Assembly: GCA_019096065.1 (NCBI GenBank)
Contig: JAGUCH010000006.1
Coordinates: 4,546,001-4,610,000, forward strand
Reading direction: 5' to 3'
Length of the DNA: 64,000 nt
Source of the DNA: Paracyclopina nana
Lineage: Eukaryota > Arthropoda > Copepoda > Cyclopoida > Cyclopettidae
A model generated the notes under the pieces. That model was not told the DNA's origin, ran no database searches, and saw nothing but the letters and a program-made list of their open reading frames with translations. This document shows, piece after piece, positions 11,801 through 62,008 of the stretch. A program made the position numbers and the translations under genes. Numbering within the stretch: the first letter of the stretch is position 1; the number at the start of each line of letters is the position of its first letter.

Positions 11801-14693
11801 AATTTTCCAAATCTTTCAGGTTTCGAGAGGAGGACGAAATATGGCTGTGAGGGCACAACTTTGCACATTTCTTGCGAAGAGGGGACCGTGATCAACCTGG
11901 TCAGAGCCAATTTTGGCCGATTCTCCATATCTATTTGCAACGAAGAGGGTGTCACTGATTGGAGTGTCAATTGCATGGAACCCAGAACGCTCAGGGTCAT
12001 CAACGCAAGGTAAATACTCCCCTATTAATCTGGCTTAGCATCAATCCAAAAGGCAATAACAAGTTGTTTGCCACCATCTTTTTTCCCTTTTTCTCGCGAA
12101 ACTGGACAGCAGTTGGAAATTTCCATATTATTTTGCATTTTCGCTTGGCACGCTACAACGCAAAATTCGGGTCAATTGAAGTTTTATGCAAAATTTGACA
12201 ACAATTTGTCACACAGCAACTAACGACCATTGTGTCCATTTTAGGTGTGATGGAAAGCCCAGTTGTCGCATTCAAGTGGATTCCAACATTTTTGGAGATC
12301 CATGCCCAGGAACCAACAAATACGTTGAGGTCCACTACACGTGTGAACCGATACAAAAACCTGCAACCACCGAGAAACCCCTACCACCCTGGCTGCTAGA
12401 TTTGGCTGCTACGCCTTCTTATGCTCCAGAGATTGCAGCAGAGGTCACCACATCCACCACATCTACAACCACGACCACTACATCAACCACTACAACTCGG
12501 TCATCAACTACCCCCATCACGACAACGACCAGTGAGGCCATTTTGAGGACGGTTCCCAATCCTCTGCACAAGTCTACCTCTCCTCCATCCACGACAATGG
12601 AGGCTGAGCTCCAGATCCTGGAGGAAATCGTCGACCACTGTCCTCCCAAAAACGCACGAGGCCTCTACTGGAACTGGACCAAAATGGGCGAAGATGCCAT
12701 TCAAGTCTGCCCTCAAGGCTCCTCAGGCTTTGCCAGATGGTCTTGTGGTCTTGACGGCATGTGGTCGTCAGAAAGGCCCAATTTGGGCGAATGTCAGTCC
12801 TTGTGGCTCAGCCGACTGGAGCAAAGGTTGCAAGGGTCCACAGAGCAAATAACTGGCCTTGCCAGCGACCTCTCCGCCTCCACTGAGACCAAGAGCCTTT
12901 ATGGTGGTGATTTTAATGTTGTCGCAAAGATTTTACAAGCTCTATCGCACCGACTGAGGCAAGAGCTGTATTTGATGCCGTCGCAAAGTGAGAAAGAGAC
13001 CCTTGTGGCCGAGCTGCTGCAGAACGTGCTCAAAACAGCCTCCAATCTTTTGGACAGCTCTCAAATGATCGGCTGGGATGACCTTAATGGACAAAAGAGG
13101 TCGAATGCAGTGACCTCCATCATGATTGCAGTGGAGGAGAATGCTCTGCTGCTGGCTGAGACCATCAACAACGAGAAGAATCTGGCAGAAGCCACCAACA
13201 ACATTCTGGCCTCGGTGCGAATCATGCGAGCGAGGGGGGTATATGACCAAATGTTCCCCACTGTCGAGGACTCCGAGCCCTCGGTGTTGATTGTGCCATC
13301 CAATGCACTTTTGGAGACCAGTGTGGACGGAGCTGTCAGAATCGTTTTCTTCCTCTACAACAGCCTCGAGGCTGTCCTCCCGGCCTCCTACCAAGGACAA
13401 TACGTCAATTCCAAAGTGATGGGAGTTGTGGCCTCCAAAGGCAGATACGAGAGGATCGAGGGACGACCAGTCAAATTCACGATGAGACACTTGACGAGCA
13501 ACCCAAACAATAACAACTTGTGTGTAGCTTGGGACTATCCAAGCAAAGAGTGGACCTCACAGGACTGCTCAGTTGTTATGACTAATGCCACGCATACCTC
13601 CTGCAGTTGCAAGAGGCTGGCCAACTATGCTATCCTCTCCTCGGACCAGGCTGCCCTAGAGACCCACGTCACCGACCACACTGGACTGGCTGAGCCCCAC
13701 CTCGAGTCGAATGGATCAGACAAGAGCGAGGACTCCAACTTGGCCATCATTGTGTCCGTCTCCACTGTGGCCCTGTGCCTGGCCTTCATTTTGGTCGGCC
13801 TCTTCGTCTTCAGACACAGTGACCTCAAGCCCAAAATCGAGAAGTTCATCCAGTCGAAGAAAGCGGCTTGCTTCCACTGCAAAAAGTCAGACAGTCAGAC
13901 CAGCTCAGGGAGCGGCCTTTATCCGGCCTTGACCAGCTCGCCGACCTCAACCACAGTGTCCGCTGGCACGCCAACGACCATGAACGCCTCTTCCAATTAT
14001 CTGGTGCAGATCTTGGAGCAACAAGCCGAGACGATGAAGCATGTGCGAACGAACGGCGGCAACAAGGCCATGCCACAACAGTACTCGAGTGGCGCCATCT
14101 ATCAAGTCACAGCTCCACGCGGCAACAATGTGTTCAGGCCGGTGAGCCCCTACAACCACCACATCTACATGGAGATCGATCCAGTGTACCAGCACCACTT
14201 GATGAACCAGGCTGCTCAGCACCAGCACATGGAGTCGTCAGAGGGTGGACACTCGGATATTCAGCTGTCAGACATTTCCGATGATGATTTGAGGCGATTC
14301 AGCGACGGCAACAGGGCCCGCTACGCCGAAGAGAGGCCTTTGATCAGAGGCAACAATTTGCCCGATAACAACCAGTTCCAGCAAGCGCAACGCCATTGCA
14401 TGACGACTCAACGTGGCCACCAAGTTGTTGGACAGCTCCAAAACGGTGTCACTCTGCGACCAGTGCAAGTGTCAACGTTGGCCAACTGTGGTCATCACAG
14501 CTTACGCGGACCAAGAAATAATGGCCATTTTCGGCCTCAGCCTCACTTTTTCGGCAATCAACAGCAACAACAGCAACTGAGTGGATATGCTCAAGAGGCT
14601 CCCATCACAATAGCTCTCCAAGGCGGAGACCAATTCGTGAGCCTTCAGATTGACAAGGCTGAAAACTATGCTGGATTGCATCTGCATCACTGA
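8806..14693 (+). CDS. Latrophilin/Cirl-like single-pass receptor, gene A (903 aa)
   Basis: Three coding exons: 8806-8878, 11820-12009, 12245-14693 (introns of phase 1 and 2, all GT..AG). The signal peptide is about residues 1-24, followed by ERR at 27-29. The SUEL/RBL galactose-lectin fold (Y32-C121) carries RANFGRFSI and FGDPCPGT, close to arthropod Cirl. A Thr/Ser-rich mucin-like linker spans 156-184. The HRM domain is C220-C271 (YWNWT, GFARWSC). The GAIN region leads to a GPS at C514 with a CSC cluster. The tripeptide is R545-L546/A547 instead of HL/T, so self-cleavage is not expected. One TM helix (586-610) is followed by a 293-residue tail with [13 protein letters not shown] (722-734) and RPLIR (785-789), rich in His and Gln. 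The 7TM bundle of adhesion GPCRs is missing. Latrophilins are neuronal adhesion and mechanosensory receptors; what this form binds is unknown. Domain identity is firm; the exon joins are inferred. Confidence 0.88.
12438..12535 (+). repeat. Thr/Ser-codon low-complexity tract in gene A
   Basis: Imperfect ACC/ACA/ACT trinucleotide run encoding an almost pure Thr/Ser stretch between the lectin and HRM domains. Such tracts are typically O-glycosylated stalks and often vary in length between individuals. Confidence 0.8.
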
Positions 14694-41413: not shown

Positions 41414-42474
41414 ATGAGGCTCGCGTTGCAGCTGATTTTCGTGGACTTGGTTCTTCTAACCAGAGGCCAAGGAAGAGGTGGTGGGCTCTTGGGAAGACTC
41501 CCAATCAGGCCACATAACAGAGGAGGAGGAGGAGGTCCCATTCGGATACCCAAGACGCCAAAAGTGACCTCTCAAATTTGCATGAGTGACCTGTCAATTC
41601 GAGCCATGACTTTGATTGAGAAAATTGCTTCCATTTCCGAGACTGAAAGGGCCGACAATTTCCTGGCCAATGCAGAAGCTTGCATGATGCAAGGAGCTCA
41701 AGGGGGCTCTCCAGGTTATACTTCAAGCATAATTGCTTAAGGGTATCACGCCTTTATTTTTAATTAGGAATCCAAGGCAGGCAAGGATTAAGGCCCTGGG
41801 GAAGTCGGCCTAATCCGAGAGGATTTGGGCATCAGTTGGGAGGTGGTGGATTGCAGATGCCTCAATTGAACAATGGAGGAGGCCAAATGGAAGAATTTCC
41901 ACAAGTGAATGGGGGTGGCCAAGTGGGAGGCTTTCCTCCAAATAATAACGAGGGTGGACGAATTGGAAATAACCCCCAAATAGGAAATAACCCTCAAATA
42001 GGAAATAACCCCCAAATAGGAAATAACCCCCAAATAGGAAATAACCCTCAAATAGGAAGTAACCCCCAAGAAAACCAAGGTGGTAGGTCCAAACCCAAAC
42101 TTCCTATTGATGATACTGAAGATGCCTTGGCTTCTCCTGAGTCTCCTCCTGAACCTTTTCAACCTCAGGAACAGCCTTCCAACTCAACTGAAGCTCCTGA
42201 GAATAACAGTGAACCAAAAATTGAAAGCAAGACTAGATTGGGGGACTACGACATCACAGAGTTACCTGACGAGCTACTCGAAAACGAAGAAGAGGAGTAC
42301 GACTACAACGAGGAAGTAGACGAGAATTCCCCGCCTGAAAACGAGCCTTCGCCTGGAGATGTGGAAGATGATGATACGTTTGAAGAAGATACACTGGAGC
42401 CAGTTGAAGAAGAAGAAGACGTCACTGAGGAACCTGCAGTGCCCAAAATAAGAAGGCAGTCCTTCCAGGGATAA
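41414..42474 (+). CDS. Secreted Gly/Gln-rich acidic repeat protein (335 aa)
   Basis: Two exons, 41414-41714 and 41768-42474, join in phase 1 across a 53-bp intron (GT at 41715, ATTAG at 41767); only this acceptor restores frame. The sequence begins with a signal peptide (about 1-19), then a Gly/Arg/Pro segment. A short helical module follows, bounded by C56 and C90, the only two cysteines noted. A Gly/Gln/Asn-rich part has six copies of GNNPQI-type hexapeptides at 167-202. Next is a Pro/Glu-rich segment, then a strongly acidic domain (about 250-325), ending KIRRQSFQG with a dibasic site. No known family recognised. The composition suggests an extracellular matrix, cuticle or mineral-binding protein, or a secreted precursor; this is inference. 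A weak TATA-like GTTATAAT lies at 41375-41382. AATAAA is at 42552-42557. Confidence 0.75.
41715..41767 (+). other. 53-bp intron of the secreted repeat protein gene
   Basis: It begins GTTATA and ends TTAATTAG. The unspliced frame hits a stop (TAA) within it. Joining 41714 to 41768 gives a continuous frame with the same Gly/Gln-rich composition on both sides. It is the shortest intron in the window. Confidence 0.65.
41965..42072 (+). repeat. 18-bp coding tandem repeat, six units
   Basis: Five near-identical copies of an 18-bp unit (41965-41982, 41983-42000, 42001-42018, 42019-42036, 42037-42054) differ mainly by a CCC/CCT synonymous change, followed by a diverged sixth copy at 42055-42072. Each encodes GNNPQI (last copy GSNPQE). 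Near-identity at DNA level points to recent or ongoing unit duplication. Confidence 0.95.
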
Positions 42475-56200: not shown

Positions 56201-59200
56201 CTCTGAACAAAGTTAACCCGGTTGTGGCCTTAACCAAACAGCTAGGCAGTGCAGCTTCCGCAACTTTACTCCAACTTTTCTCGAAAATATTCTGATGAGT
56301 GTAGAATTGCCAAGTAAGTGTTAGTTGCTAGTTGCTGCTGCTGCTCTTTTGTTACCTGAGGCTTTTTCGGTTGAAGCTGCTGCTGTTGTTTGGGATGCAT
56401 AAAAGTTTCCCCAAAGCAAACTTTTCGAGGGGCTGATGCTAACTCGAAAGTAGGTATGCTATTGTAATGGATCGAATACACCCCCAAAAAAGCTTGCCTC
56501 CAGAAGTTGTTGCTCTAGTTCAAGATGATGTCAGCATTTGTAGAAAACCAAGGGCAGCAGCATTGATTTATTCAATTTTTCAAACATAATTTTATTCCTC
56601 GCACACCACTCCAGCTCCAGTGTTTGACAAGCAATTGGCATGGGTTGACCAATAGCAGTCATCCAAGGTGGTGGTTTTTGCGTTGCAAGAGAGTTGAGTT
56701 AGTGCAAAAGCTCCTTTCACAGGTCCAAAATAGGAGCCATATGCTATGAATTGTGCACCATCGAATCCCATGTCTCTGCACACTGAGATTGCCTACAGAG
56801 GTACGCATTTTTTAGAATTGAGACCAATTTGGTGTGTGCAATGAGCAATTTCACCTCTTCATGGCCAAATCCTGTATCACACACTGGTCCAAGTACCAAG
56901 TCTTCTCCCGCGGCATACAAATTCCCCTCAAATTCATTGGCACCATCCAATAGTATGGTCATTTGCTGTTTCAATTCATTCAAAGGCTCTAATACATCGT
57001 TCGTTTTAAAATGGCTAACTAGGAGATCATTTTGAAAGTTACTATTCAAACGGCAAGCTACTCCTGCAGCTTTAAAGATGTCGCTGCAGTCGGCTCGTTT
57101 GACTGAAAACGAGCATCCACTGATGCTCGCTTCGGTCCCCGTGCATTTCATGTTGGTCAATTTATAGCTGGGACAAGCTTTGGAGCGGAATAAATTTTGC
57201 CTAGAAACTCCAATCAAGCCTGCATTTCGCCCTCCAACTTGAGAGCAAATTACAGCTCCCTTAAACGTCGGGACAGCTCGCATACATTTGCATAGAATAA
57301 TATGCATTTGTCATAATTACCTCCAGTGGGCCGAAATCGGTGCTATCAATGACGACAATTTCTTCGTTGAGAGGTCCAAGATGAGTAGTGATGATAATGT
57401 TTCCAGCAACCAAGTCATCGGCGCCGTTGAAATTATCCGAAGTTAATTGCACAGTATCAATATTCTCGGTGATAGCTCGGCTTGTAGAATGTTGGATGTA
57501 TTGATACATAACGTAGCCACTTGCAGCAATCAGCGCCAAAGAGACAAACAATAGCACAGGGAAAATTGGGGAGCAGCCATGCCTGCGATTTTTCTCATTC
57601 TCTATGGTGTCATAAGGCAAAATCATGTTTTTCCCCACATATTGCTGCACTTGAATCTGCTTCGTTTCCAAAGGGGGTGGTTGCCTCTGGAATAAAGCCA
57701 CTTGCTGCGGAGCATCATATCTTGGCGCAGAAGGCAAAGCCTCAGAGCCACCGTCCTAGAAAAAAGGAGCAAAAAATTGACTATCAGGGCTGCGAATGCG
57801 TGACATTTTTGCCTACAGGGACAGCAAATGTGTAATTGATGCTCAAAATATTGCCGAAAGCTGCCCGAACGCGACGTGGAGGCCCATAATCGTTGGCCTC
57901 CATGTCAAAGAAGCTTCTGGGTGGATACTACAAAAATAGCGTGTATTCCCTGAGTATCTTAGTTTCCTTGGCTACTTGGCAATTTTGAGGTCAACTGCAA
58001 TCAATTCCATCTACGTAAATTGTGGGTATGCACGACTGAGCAACTTTTTTCAGCAATCAATAAAGGCAATTTTGATGTTGACAAAAGGGGCCCCTCTTAG
58101 GAAACAATATTTTCTCAAGCTGCTCCTTATCTTGCCAACCCAAATTTTCACCTGAAAAATGCTTCTTCAAAGCAAAGAGGGCATCAATGGGGATATGCTC
58201 CATATTTTCCCTCCCCGCTTCCTGCGTGCACACTCTAGAAGATATACAAGGTGCTTCATCAAACTGTAGTAATCAATGAAATTGGGGTACAAAGAAAAGT
58301 ACTATCCCGTCAATAGAAAAACGCGTGGATTAAGCTGTGCTTATTTTGACTAAAGTTACAGTTGGAACTCACTGTATTTATTGACGAATCAATATTGGAA
58401 AGGCGTACAGTAATCTCTGACTTCGGACCCTCTTTTTCAAAGCGGCATCCTTCTGCGCGATGTATGAAAGCGAAGCTTATGTGGGTTTAACGTTTCTTTG
58501 AACTACTATTTTCAGGCCAAGTTGATAAATCCACTTCAGTGACCTCCGAGGCTGCCGCTCCTCGGCCTCGATCAAAACGGAAGACAGATCGTCTTACAGC
58601 CTACGCATGCGAGGATACAACTTTAAACATAACCTGCGGCCAGGATTTGTATTTGGACGTCATCCGAGCCAACTACGGCCGTTTCTCAATCACAATCTGT
58701 AACGACCACGGAAATACAGATTGGAAAGTCGACTGCCAAGCTGGAAGAACCTTGCGGGCTATGCAAGCAAGATGTAGCAATAAGAACCAGTGCATTGTGC
58801 CCGTACAGAGTTCAATATTTGGGGATCCGTGCCCAGGAACCTTTAAATACATCGAAGTGCACTATGCTTGCAGAGCAGGTAATTTATTGCAAAATACAGA
58901 TAGCTAGTACAGCATTGTATTTTTGAAAAGGCGCCATTTTCATTCTTCGCCCATCTCTTTTTCTTATTTTCCCTTTTGTGAAAGTCGAAGAGGAGATCTA
59001 TTACCGATTCCATTAAGATGGAGTGGCCGGAATGGAAAATTTTGAGCACTGCGCACCAAGGCGTACATCTCGAAAGAAAAGCCATAAAAAAGTTTTATCT
59101 TCTTTGCAGATCCCGTATTGCCAAAAACGACAACTTCGAGGCCCCTTCCTCATTGGTTCCCGCCAGCCTCTCCGAGGCCCGGCGATTGGACTTCCATCAA

Positions 59201-62008
59201 CTTGAATGGCCTCAAAAACGAGACGTCTCTATCTGTATCGAATACAACCACAATACAGCCGATTGTATTGACCACCCTGGACCCAGAAGATTACGAGGAC
59301 GAGTCCAACATTCCTGGCCTTTTTGATGGAGACTACGACCGGGTGATTCAAGTGAAAGTGCCCAAGGTGCCTTACAACTTCGAGGCCATCCAGAAGCAGC
59401 AGTCTAAATCTCATTTACCGATACATTTGCCAGAGGAGAATACTACCGAAGGCCCCGATGCTTCCACGCCGCCATCGACCACGACCACAAAAAGGCCATC
59501 TGTTAGCCTGCAGGTCTTGGCCAACTTTACCCAGTACTGCCCTCCAGCCAGATCGCGCAGCCTTTTCTGGAACTGGACTCTGGCCGTAAGAAATTTATCT
59601 GTTTTAAATGCATTGCTTGCAATCTCTGAGCTACTTGGTAGTATCAGCAGCGATTATCGTAAATATTCACGAATAGAGCTAACATGTTTATCTCTCTTTG
59701 CGCAGGGTGATTCTGCAGTGGTGCAATGTCCGTCAGGATCCACTGGATTTGCTAAATGGAGTTGCGATTTGCCTTCCCCGAATGGAGACCATCAAAGAGT
59801 CACTTGGGACTCGAGAGGCCCCATTTTTGCTGAATGCCGCTCCTTGTGGCTCGGAGAGCTGGATTCCAAATTAAGAGGAGGGCTCGCGAGTGTGCGAGAA
59901 GTTGGCCAAATTCTGGCTGAAAAAACAGCACAAATCCATCCTGACACCGGAAATCTGCTCTTCGGCGGAGATCTCGTCCTTGGAGCTCGCATGCTCAAAC
60001 ACATGGCGGAAAGGATGCACTATGACCTTCAAAGGACGGTGAATCTGGAGGCCAGAGAGGCTATGGTGACGGATTTGGTGCAGAACGTTGTGAAGACTGC
60101 GAGCAACTTGATCAGTGACAGCAGCTTCACTCGCCAAAGCTGGAGCGATTTGAGTCCGGATGAGCTGGGAAGAGCTGCCACAGCTCTACTTGTCGGCCTT
60201 GAGGAAAATGCCTTCCTGCTTGCTGAAACGGTGACCAGTGAGAAAATCATCATCAAGCCCACTGACAATGTTTGTAAGTGCAACTTTTCCCCTTATCACT
60301 CACATCATTCGATCTAATTTCCTCCCATTTTACAGTGCTTTCCATTCGGGTGATGCAATCTCGTAATGCGCACAAGCAAGTGTTTCCTTCGGTGGAAACG
60401 ATTGAAAGTTGGCCATCCACCATTGGGGACTCCATCGAACTGAGCCCCCAAGCAATCCTGCAAAACGGCAACAATGGGGCAATCAGGGTAATCTTCACTG
60501 CCTTCAATCAGCTCGATCAGCTCCTCATCCCAATCAAAACGAGGCACGCTGCGGCGGAGGCGGGAGGAAAAGTGGAGAGCAGGAAATTCATCAATTCCAG
60601 AATCATTGCTGCTTCACTGGGCCGTGGCAGGCACATCGAGTTACCGCAACCAGTTCAAATCACATTCAGGCACCTTAATGATGTCGATCCAGCCAGGGTC
60701 AGGCCAGAGTGCGTTTACTGGGACTACGTGAGCAATGCCTGGTCCTCAGAGGGCTGCCAGCCCGTTTTGAGCAATGTCACTCATACCCAGTGCAGCTGCA
60801 ACCATCTCACCAATTTTGCCCTCCTCATGTCGCAAGTGGGCCAGAATGGGCACAGCGCTACGTTGGACAACCCGCCCAAAATGGCACCGAGCTCGAAAAA
60901 GTCCGAGCTAGGGGCCAACTCGTACATCTCCACCATTGTGGTCTCAGTGGCTGCCCTGATTGTTCTGGCTGTGATCATGTTCTTTGTCATCTATGCCTGG
61001 AAAAGGTTCCAGGTGTCCAGCCAGTGCAGGTCAGCCCTGGAGAAGAGTGGCCTGCCCTGCTTCCACAAGGGCAAGGAGTTGCCTGGCAGTGATAAAGATA
61101 AGGGCAACAATAAGGGCAACTTTTACACAGTTACTCCCAAGCTGAATGCCAATGGGCAGAACCAGCTGAACTCCTCGAGCAACGATGAAGTGGCCGAGGC
61201 TCAGCAGTTTTTCGAGCATATGATTAATCTGCAGAAAAACGAGCAAAGTGCCATCTCCAGATCGATGACGTTGAAAAGGCTCAATAACGAGGTGAGTGAG
61301 GCCTCGGAGAACAAGCCCAACAATCTGGACAACAAGATTTATCCCAAACGGAGGGCTCTGAGCCCGTACAACCATATCTACATGGAGATTGAGCCCAAAA
61401 GTGAGCAAATGGACATGGCTCAGCAGCAGCCGGTGTACGAGCCACTGACGCACAGTGAGACTTACCTGATGTCTACCATGAGTGATCTAAGTGAAGACAA
61501 CTACAATTACTTGACCAATTGTACCCCAGCTACCACGGACGTTTCGAGACAGTCGTCTTCTAGGGAAATTACCAGACCTCTTATTAGGACATTACCACAG
61601 AATAGCAATCCTGGGAATTCGGCCAATCTTTTGCAGACCATAAGTGGAGTGCTGCACTCGCAATCAGTGCGGATTGCTCCCAGCTCGGCCAGAGCTCAAA
61701 CTTTGCATTATCCCACGATGAGAAGGAATAATGAGCTGATCAAGCTCAATTTCGCTGCTGATCCCACTTACATAGCTTCCACCACTTCTGATTTGGGTCA
61801 ACAACAGCCACCGCAACTGCCAATCCAGAACCATATAAATGGCGCGGCTACTATGATGGCTTCTTCTACCAGTTTCCAAATGACTAATGCCTACCTTGGC
61901 AAGCATAAGCAGTTCCTCAGGCAAAACTCCACCCCGAATACAGGAGCAGTGATGATGCAAATGACTCCTATGATGGCTCAACAAAATCAATTTGCAAGCG
62001 AAATCTGA
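53241..62008 (+). CDS. Latrophilin/Cirl-like single-pass receptor, gene B (1057 aa)
   Basis: Five coding exons: 53241-53334, 58516-58878, 59110-59585, 59706-60273, 60336-62008. Introns are of phase 1, 1, 0, 1, all GT..AG. Signal peptide is about 1-22, with a furin-type RSKR at 50-53. The SUEL/RBL lectin domain is Y61-C150 ([17 protein letters not shown]), identical to gene A at about 52 of 90 positions by hand alignment. A Pro/Thr/acidic linker leads to HRM C296-C355 (FWNWT, GFAKWSC). The GAIN region contains ASLGRGRHIEL, as in arthropod Cirl. The GPS starts at C626 with CNHLTNFAL, so canonical cleavage at L658/T659 is expected. There is one TM helix (about 698-721). The 336-residue tail has SPYNHIYMEIEP (843-854), RPLIR (914-918) and a C-terminal SEI, a class I PDZ-ligand pattern. 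No 7TM bundle is present. Likely a surface adhesion receptor; ligand unknown. Intron 1 hosts an antisense gene. Confidence 0.9.
56567..56572 (-). other. Polyadenylation signal of the SRCR gene
   Basis: AATAAA on the minus strand, 19 bases after the stop codon of the nested SRCR gene. Confidence 0.7.
56592..57903 (-). CDS. Type II membrane protein with two SRCR domains (375 aa), nested
   Basis: Four minus-strand exons: 57903-57817, 57755-57321, 57259-56855, 56792-56592. Three introns of 61, 61 and 62 bp are all phase 0 and GT..AG. The cytoplasmic N-terminus (about 1-92) is Pro/Gln-rich, with no signal peptide. The TM helix at about 93-116 is preceded by NRRHGC, giving a type II topology. SRCR1 spans about 131-243 and SRCR2 about 275-373. 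SRCR2 has the six cysteines of group A (C301, C314, C345, C355, C363, C373). SRCR1 has I where the first cysteine (VCD) should be, and an extra C203. Layout recalls class A scavenger receptors without the collagen region; a role in ligand or microbe binding is inference. The frame is open upstream of M57903 to a TAG at 57930-57928, so a further 5' exon cannot be excluded. The gene lies wholly within intron 1 of gene B, on the opposite strand. Confidence 0.85.
59586..59705 (+). other. In-frame 120-bp intron inside the HRM domain of gene B
   Basis: The intron starts GTAAGA and ends TTGCGCAG. Removing it joins WTLA to GDSAVVQCP, matching [13 protein letters not shown] of gene A. Its length is a multiple of three and it has no in-frame stop, so retention would insert 40 residues into the HRM domain without breaking the frame. 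Confidence 0.75.

Follow-up and report, generated by a model that had tools for sequence, protein, structure and literature searches.

Introduction

Latrophilins are normally seven-pass signalling receptors on nerve cells. To our knowledge, it is not settled whether the adhesive and G-protein parts of adhesion GPCRs do different work; studies of the question have so far relied on engineered truncations and on splice isoforms. One closely related system is Drosophila Cirl, reported in a paper citing Bormann et al. 2025 to exist in seven-transmembrane (7TM) and single-transmembrane (1TM) forms, the latter arising by intron retention; the two seem to heterodimerise and to signal via Gαo (PMC13197933). 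According to a proposal in one review, the link between the 7TM part and the N-termini of invertebrate latrophilins may be no more than modular (PMC6422961). ADGRE2 cut to one TM helix was still reported to be cleaved and to arrive at the cell surface (PMC12488864), which makes a one-pass product physically plausible. One-pass Cirl is therefore already known in the form of fly isoforms; what appears new here, judging from gene structure, is dedicated genes lacking TM2–TM7, of which we found no description in the literature covered, which lay largely outside the subscription journals.

We analysed a 64,000-nucleotide stretch (the window) of the genome of the copepod Paracyclopina nana (GCA_019096065.1, contig JAGUCH010000006.1, positions 4,546,001 to 4,610,000, forward strand). 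Like arthropod 7TM Cirl (ADGRL type), the genes described below have SUEL, HRM, GAIN and GPS domains, a TM1-like helix and a tail with Cirl modules; unlike it, they are one-pass genes without TM2–TM7, and one of them, gene A, also lacks the GPS cleavage triplet. They share the latrophilin ectodomain and the single helix after the GPS with the Drosophila 1TM isoforms. Those isoforms, however, are reported to stem from a gene whose products also include 7TM Cirl, whereas the one-pass genes keep the ancestral tail and 7TM exons were not found for them.

Results

Gene A encodes a latrophilin-type protein with one transmembrane helix

The open frame of gene A spans 12180–14693 on the plus strand (837 codons, with a TGA at 14691–14693) and encodes, in order, SUEL, HRM, GAIN, GPS, one TM helix and a 293-residue tail. 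A SUEL lectin exon (11820..12009, +; AG and GT flanks) supplies the first half of that domain and joins in frame to the last coding exon (12245..14693, +), which holds the rest of SUEL, a Thr-rich linker, HRM, GAIN, GPS, the TM helix, the tail and the stop; the sole stop codon in the joined sequence is the terminal one. No signal-peptide exon was located. Pfam detects SUEL at 39.4 bits (cut-off 31.4) from the second half of the domain alone, HRM at 32.3 (26.2; PF02793, ORF residues 153–207, 12636..12800, +), GAIN at 102 (26.5) and GPS at 37.6 (22.5), and no 7tm_2 domain in the gene A protein. The GAIN domain including the GPS occupies 12858..13637 (+), with the GPS Cys-x-Cys at 13602 and R-L-A in place of the catalytic H-L-T at 13614–13622. 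The TM helix lies at 13737..13811 (+) and is followed by the cytoplasmic tail (13812..14690, +), whose modules fall at 14145–14189 (15 residues), 14253–14288 (12 residues), 14319–14345 (RYAEERPLI) and 14604–14645 (14 residues), all on the plus strand. AlphaFold predicts a single confident TM helix (residues 518–546) and a low-confidence tail.

A first-pass annotation, made from the DNA letters of the window, had proposed a latrophilin/Cirl-like receptor with one TM helix instead of seven, in a frame unbroken from the GPS through the helix and a 293-residue hydrophilic tail to the stop. The Pfam domains without 7tm_2, the predicted single helix and the open 837 codons bear this out. Gene A has the N-terminal SUEL, the HRM followed by GAIN and GPS, and the arthropod Cirl tail of a latrophilin, and it lacks the seven-transmembrane domain, the 7TM core for G-protein coupling and an H-X-S/T triplet at the GPS. 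Gene A is descended from a latrophilin, but it is not a 7TM latrophilin.

Six one-pass genes in the genome

Profile searches of the genome (92 Mb, 10 contigs) with SUEL, GAIN and GPS, combined with exon-by-exon tblastn, yielded six one-pass latrophilin-type genes, A–F, five of them (A, B, C, D and F) on contig C6 and gene E on C8. Gene B, which is single-pass as well, follows as the window's next latrophilin gene, at 58.5–62.0 kb on the plus strand. It comprises a SUEL exon with approximate edges (58540..58885, +), an open frame with the linker, HRM and the first part of GAIN (59088..60269, +), in which an in-frame intron of ~126 nt seems to be present at ~59580–59705, and a segment with the rest of GAIN, the GPS with an intact H-L-T, the TM helix (60923–60994), a tail containing SPYNHIYMEIEP and the stop (60335..62008, +). 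Genes C and D are on the minus strand of C6 at 4.64 and 4.70 Mb, gene F, found via SUEL and tblastn, is on the plus strand at 3.24 Mb, and gene E is at 3.24 Mb of C8. A, B, C and D are clustered within ~145 kb (C6:4.558–4.702 Mb).

Each of the six has one hydrophobic helix after the GPS (read by eye in C–F). A and B are intron-free from TM1 to the stop, and gene A lacks an intron that gene B has; in C–F a phase 0 splice donor follows soon after the helix. The tail exons of D and E were located downstream of TM1, while the tails of C (two candidate segments with weak E values, 0.27 and 0.66) and F (one piece, read by eye) are incomplete here.

All eight GAIN-family matches in the genome fall within genes A–E. 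The GPS search listed 11 loci: A–F, four near a 7tm_2 match (C1:5.905, which is gene G below, C5:4.191, C2:4.610 and C5:45 kb) and C1:3.356. This census overlooked a further 7TM gene (H, below), in which an intron apparently interrupts the GPS.

The one-pass form is widespread among copepod relatives

With gene A as query, the 63 best of the 120 matches listed (254 hits) lack PF00002, and the 64th is a beetle 7TM Cirl. Crayfish, prawn, isopod, spider, tick, mite and horseshoe crab proteins with PF00002 come after it. In the same list, PF00002 is absent from Tigriopus P0061 (assigned by its tag) and P0063 and from fly P0065, P0069 and P0072. The salmon louse protein P0179, used as a query in turn (best 120 of 264), recovered Lepeophtheirus P0179, P0189 and P0190, Tigriopus californicus P0185 and P0257, and P0212, whose tag Tk we take to denote Tigriopus kingsejongensis, all without PF00002; the insects, the one crayfish and the ostracod Darwinula among the matches listed carried it, except for sandfly P0065 and P0214. 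A query with the last exon of gene B gave PF00002 in 1 of 62 hits, a figure biased by restricting candidates to 0.55–1.75 times the 576-residue query, which excludes full-length 7TM Cirl.

We sorted 294 proteins by whether they matched a Cirl 7TM profile: 151 did, P0069 weakly, and the other 143 did not. Those with a match contain 3–9 hydrophobic segments; those without contain one (115 proteins), two (21), none (6) or three (1), and include insect P0065, P0072 and P0214 and the brittle star protein P0180. The Lepeophtheirus salmonis entries called ‘latrophilin Cirl’ (P0179, P0189, P0190) and the Tigriopus ‘Cirl-like’ P0185 have the same one-pass architecture as the P. nana genes; their names imply a 7TM receptor, yet the sequences are without one. 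Together with TCAL_12812 and TCAL_12813, these entries are E-, B- and A-type relatives. Some Tigriopus and Lepeophtheirus entries are labelled ‘isoform X2’, and their one-pass status refers to the X2 forms alone. TCAL_12812 is B-type and TCAL_12813 A-type; like the neighbours A and B in the window, the Tigriopus A- and B-type genes stand side by side by their consecutive tags (TCAL_12812/12813 and Tk03806/03807).

These comparisons confirm, from protein entries, that the one-pass form is common to the copepod-named relatives listed and to dozens of further relatives, whereas the other arthropods listed have 7TM Cirl, save for a few insect isoforms or partial entries. Four proteins of the ‘merc’ source, presumably a metatranscriptome catalogue (P0006, P0008, P0036 and P0134), and a Trinity transcript (P0181) continue in a single frame from the GPS across the TM helix and the tail, an indication that the one-pass form is transcribed; a fifth ‘merc’ protein, P0014, enters the tail and then departs from it.

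We built trees from the HRM-GAIN-GPS-TM1 region (SH-aLRT, tool threshold 95). One tree held all 68 rows, bird ADGRL2/3 forming the outgroup. In it, eight 7TM rows (chelicerates and two others) diverge before the rest, including gene A, with a support of 95, and the ectodomain tree thereby places the ancestry of gene A within arthropod Cirl. In this tree gene B groups with Tigriopus P0257 and P0212 and one more protein (support 99), in keeping with the copepod origin of the window, and the long-branched ostracod 7TM protein P0292 falls among one-pass rows at an unstable fork. A reduced tree omitting seven long-branch rows of the 68 (our gene F, P0085, P0066, P0060, P0061, P0063 and P0023) has the 30 copepod-type one-pass rows that it retains on one side of a branch with SH-aLRT 76.6, below the threshold; A and B together receive 95 and the E-type 100. 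These trees are most simply read as one loss of TM2–TM7 that preceded the gene duplications, though this is not proven.

The helix resembles TM1 and the tail is the Cirl tail

We compared the one-pass helix profiles with each of the seven arthropod Cirl helices separately. TM1 was the best match in all three families: for the A-type with a probability of 93% (E 2.9e-7; second, TM5, 7%), for the B-type weakly, at 26% (second, TM6, 16%), and for the E-type again weakly, at 38% (second, TM4, 2%). The TM1 identity is accordingly strong for the A family and weak for the B and E families, where the profiles point in the same direction. An origin of the helix from TM7 is not favoured, TM1 topping all seven helices in the A, B and E families. 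The segment after the helix resembles the segment after TM7 of Cirl weakly (E 0.0027, 0.027 and 0.038), and given this weakness we make no claim about the exact junction between TM1 and the tail.

The tails of A-type (61 of 63 usable, first 60 aligned), B-type (44 of 48) and E-type proteins (10 of 10 given) were compared by hhalign with those of 101 arthropod 7TM Cirl proteins (first 60 aligned), and matched with probabilities of 98.3% (E 1.3e-14), 98.3% (E 1.5e-14) and 97.0% (E 1.1e-10), respectively. Modules in common are SP(Y/W)NHxYMEI...DPVY, SD.SDDD and SRQSS..Y..RPLI. A YxEI motif in the last 40% of the protein is found in 64/65 A-type, 30/48 B-type, 11/12 E-type and 85/115 arthropod 7TM proteins (shuffled expectations 1.5, 1.1, 0.25 and 5.35) and in 0/35 bird proteins (2.9). 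Profile comparison of arthropod with bird Cirl tails gave nothing usable (probability 19.5%). An extra terminal QFVxL module occurs in 42 of 65 A-type and 32 of 48 B-type proteins, against 2 of 115 arthropod 7TM and 0 of 12 E-type proteins.

The gene A tail itself is matched by 57 of 65 A-type homologues, at up to 72% identity over ~300 residues, and the architecture of gene A is therefore not due to chance. The first-pass annotation had named an unspliced intron in place of the tail as a finding that would overturn its reading; this is ruled out by the conservation of the tail and its homology to the 7TM Cirl tail. By the profile matches, the tail is not new sequence, it is the ancestral Cirl tail. 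Since the helix is TM1-like and the tail that of Cirl, the part lost between the two is TM2–TM7.

The GPS cleavage triplet is lost in the A family and kept in the B family

The canonical GPS cleavage motif is given as H-X-S/T in PMC13062082. Genes B, C, D and E read H-L-T, with that of gene B at window 60791–60817; gene A reads R-L-A and gene F S-L-A. H-X-S/T is present in 1 of 65 A-type proteins (55 scored by pattern, one of them with the motif, and the other ten by reading, none with it), while H-L-T is present in all 46 B-type proteins scored, the other two of the 48 lacking a GPS pattern. The E-type family is mixed, with H-L-T in 7 of 12; on reading, the motif is absent from P0186 and from P0189, where the pattern had mis-hit. 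For comparison, 149 of 150 7TM proteins were scored and 145 have H-L-T, three of the other four being mis-hits. Reading the 13 proteins left unscored by the pattern added no H-X-S/T.

On these counts the A family, having lost the motif, is predicted not to self-cleave and the B family is predicted to do so. For ADGRB2, H-L-S by itself is reported to be insufficient for cleavage. Gene B, with its triplet kept, stands beside gene A, whose family lost it.

The search for TM2–TM7 and two further 7TM genes

The earlier claim that no 7TM-like ORF follows gene A in the next 38 kb holds over a wider range. None of the 35 genome matches listed for PF00002 (7tm_2) is on contigs C6 or C8. Searches with the 7TM Cirl of Cherax and of Galendromus gave no TM2–TM7 match in 174 kb around gene A or in the sequence around any of A–F, and the whole-genome search with ostracod and cockroach 7TM Cirl listed no TM2–TM7 match on C6 or C8. 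In D and E, no 7TM match lies between TM1 and the downstream tail exons.

Ectodomain matches in the ostracod and cockroach searches were to A–F; 7TM matches were several weak ones and two nearer genes. Gene G (C1:5.903–5.909 Mb, loci L030 and L031) has C-type-lectin-like segments by eye, HRM, GAIN, GPS and 7TM. Its 7TM domain shares 49% identity with cockroach Cirl across 100 residues and, in a separate comparison, up to 48% with insect Cirl; its best solved match is ADGRL3. Gene H (C1:6.588–6.592 Mb, locus L046, 3270–7087) shows, by eye, a signal peptide; it also has a SUEL-like segment that scores 14.7 bits against a Pfam cut-off of 31.4, a GAIN-like segment, a GPS with H-L-T and 7TM exons 36–41% identical in the ostracod and cockroach search and 42% to insect Cirl. 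No Cirl tail modules were seen on reading the tails of G and H. In a tree of 7TM domains, G and H fall outside arthropod Cirl; constraining both to lie with Cirl is not rejected (p-AU 0.196).

Of the separate 7TM Cirl gene that the first-pass annotation had thought worth seeking elsewhere in the genome, the canonical form was not found: no gene in the genome searched combines a canonical Cirl ectodomain, a 7TM domain and a Cirl tail. Latrophilin-like 7TM domains do exist in G and H, on ectodomains that are of another kind or highly divergent. H is possibly a divergent 7TM latrophilin; G and H may be separate paralogues or may be the displaced 7TM half of a latrophilin. Through their domains, 7TM latrophilin function may persist in the animal. 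Assembly incompleteness may play a part in the absence of a canonical Cirl gene; as the whole explanation it is opposed by the Lepeophtheirus and Tigriopus entries.

Discussion

The reading we prefer, with a probability of roughly 0.7, is that gene A belongs to the Cirl family and has lost TM2–TM7, most likely once in copepods, with SUEL-HRM-GAIN, TM1 and the original tail remaining. Overlooked 7TM exons, with A–F as mere 1TM splice isoforms of ordinary genes, would be a rival explanation; in its favour, intron retention is reported to yield the fly 1TM isoforms (PMC13197933) and C–F have an intron directly after TM1. We consider it very improbable. A and B are intron-free from TM1 to the stop, so that gene A, open from GPS to stop and with no TM2–TM7 match near, is not built like a Drosophila-type isoform. 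The Cherax and Galendromus helices found no partner around A–F, and none is listed there genome-wide; in D and E no 7TM match separates TM1 from the tail exons that follow it. By eye, the insect isoforms P0065 and P0072 are without the ancestral tail. That the copepod splice donor is that of the intron retained in insects is likewise unsupported, the insect isoforms diverging ~10 residues further on than the copepod donors, again by eye. Decay of a 7TM latrophilin copy would fit the degraded GPS triplet (R-L-A) of gene A and the absence of the gene B intron, and is still harder to credit with 837 codons open, tail and ectodomain conserved in many homologues, and the loss of the cleavage motif common to the A-type family (64/65).

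A split receptor is a more serious, if doubtful, alternative: adhesive TM1-plus-tail subunits (A–F) would assemble with a separate 7TM protein, G or H, fixing in the genome the pair that the fly makes from one gene. The 7TM domains of G and H are near ADGRL/Cirl in identity, ADGRL3 is the best solved match of G, neither tail shows Cirl motifs on reading, and the fly 1TM and 7TM forms appear to heterodimerise (PMC13197933). The 7TM tree, however, leaves G and H outside arthropod Cirl, with the inside position unrejected; the G ectodomain is lectin-like, not SUEL, and H stays below the SUEL cut-off. We therefore regard only tentatively a copepod latrophilin divided by genes into a one-pass adhesive family, cleavable in B–E and non-cleavable in A and F, and a 7TM half that, if surviving, resides in G or H and joins it in a heteromer. 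If so, the outcome of alternative splicing in the fly would be hard-wired in copepods as separate genes.

If gene A and its sisters are, as we prefer, one-pass descendants of Cirl, their products would be type I single-pass adhesion receptors at cell contacts. The ectodomain would bind partners across the contact, with teneurin as a candidate. Tox-GHH, which we take to be the C-terminal domain of teneurins, has two matches in this genome, on contig C9, and on that basis this animal probably has an equivalent of the mammalian latrophilin ligand. The conserved tail, with its YMEI, SD.SDDD, RPLI and QFVxL modules, would recruit cytoplasmic partners. B, C, D and E, with H-L-T kept, could self-cleave and shed the ectodomain, whereas A and F, without the cleavage residues, would remain one covalent chain and serve as a permanent tether. 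The Stachel of a one-pass protein could not activate a 7TM core in cis; signalling would pass through the tail, perhaps via a 7TM partner, and a G-protein output would need such a separate partner, as in the fly 1TM–7TM pair.

The copepod genes offer a natural test of a latrophilin without its signalling core. At the level of genes, they are consistent with the idea of modular 7TM attachment (PMC6422961). A lineage that keeps ectodomain, TM1 and tail without TM2–TM7 suggests that tail and ectodomain have selected functions independent of a 7TM core in cis. It also suggests that one paralogue family can do without GAIN cleavage, which another retains. The name latrophilin Cirl on a copepod database entry does not guarantee a seven-pass receptor.

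Additional loci

Beyond A–F, SUEL-type matches were found at C6:1396838–1397074, C1:7941203–7941382 and C2:5210294–5210590. For the GPS motif at C1:3356349–3356471, no nearby 7tm_2 match is among those listed. Between genes A and B, the window contains a 236-codon open frame (41764–42474) in which an 18-base tandem repeat (IGNNPQ) occurs six times at 41961–42069, and an open frame on the minus strand (56747–57310) with a weak SRCR match (25.0 bits, cut-off 26.1).
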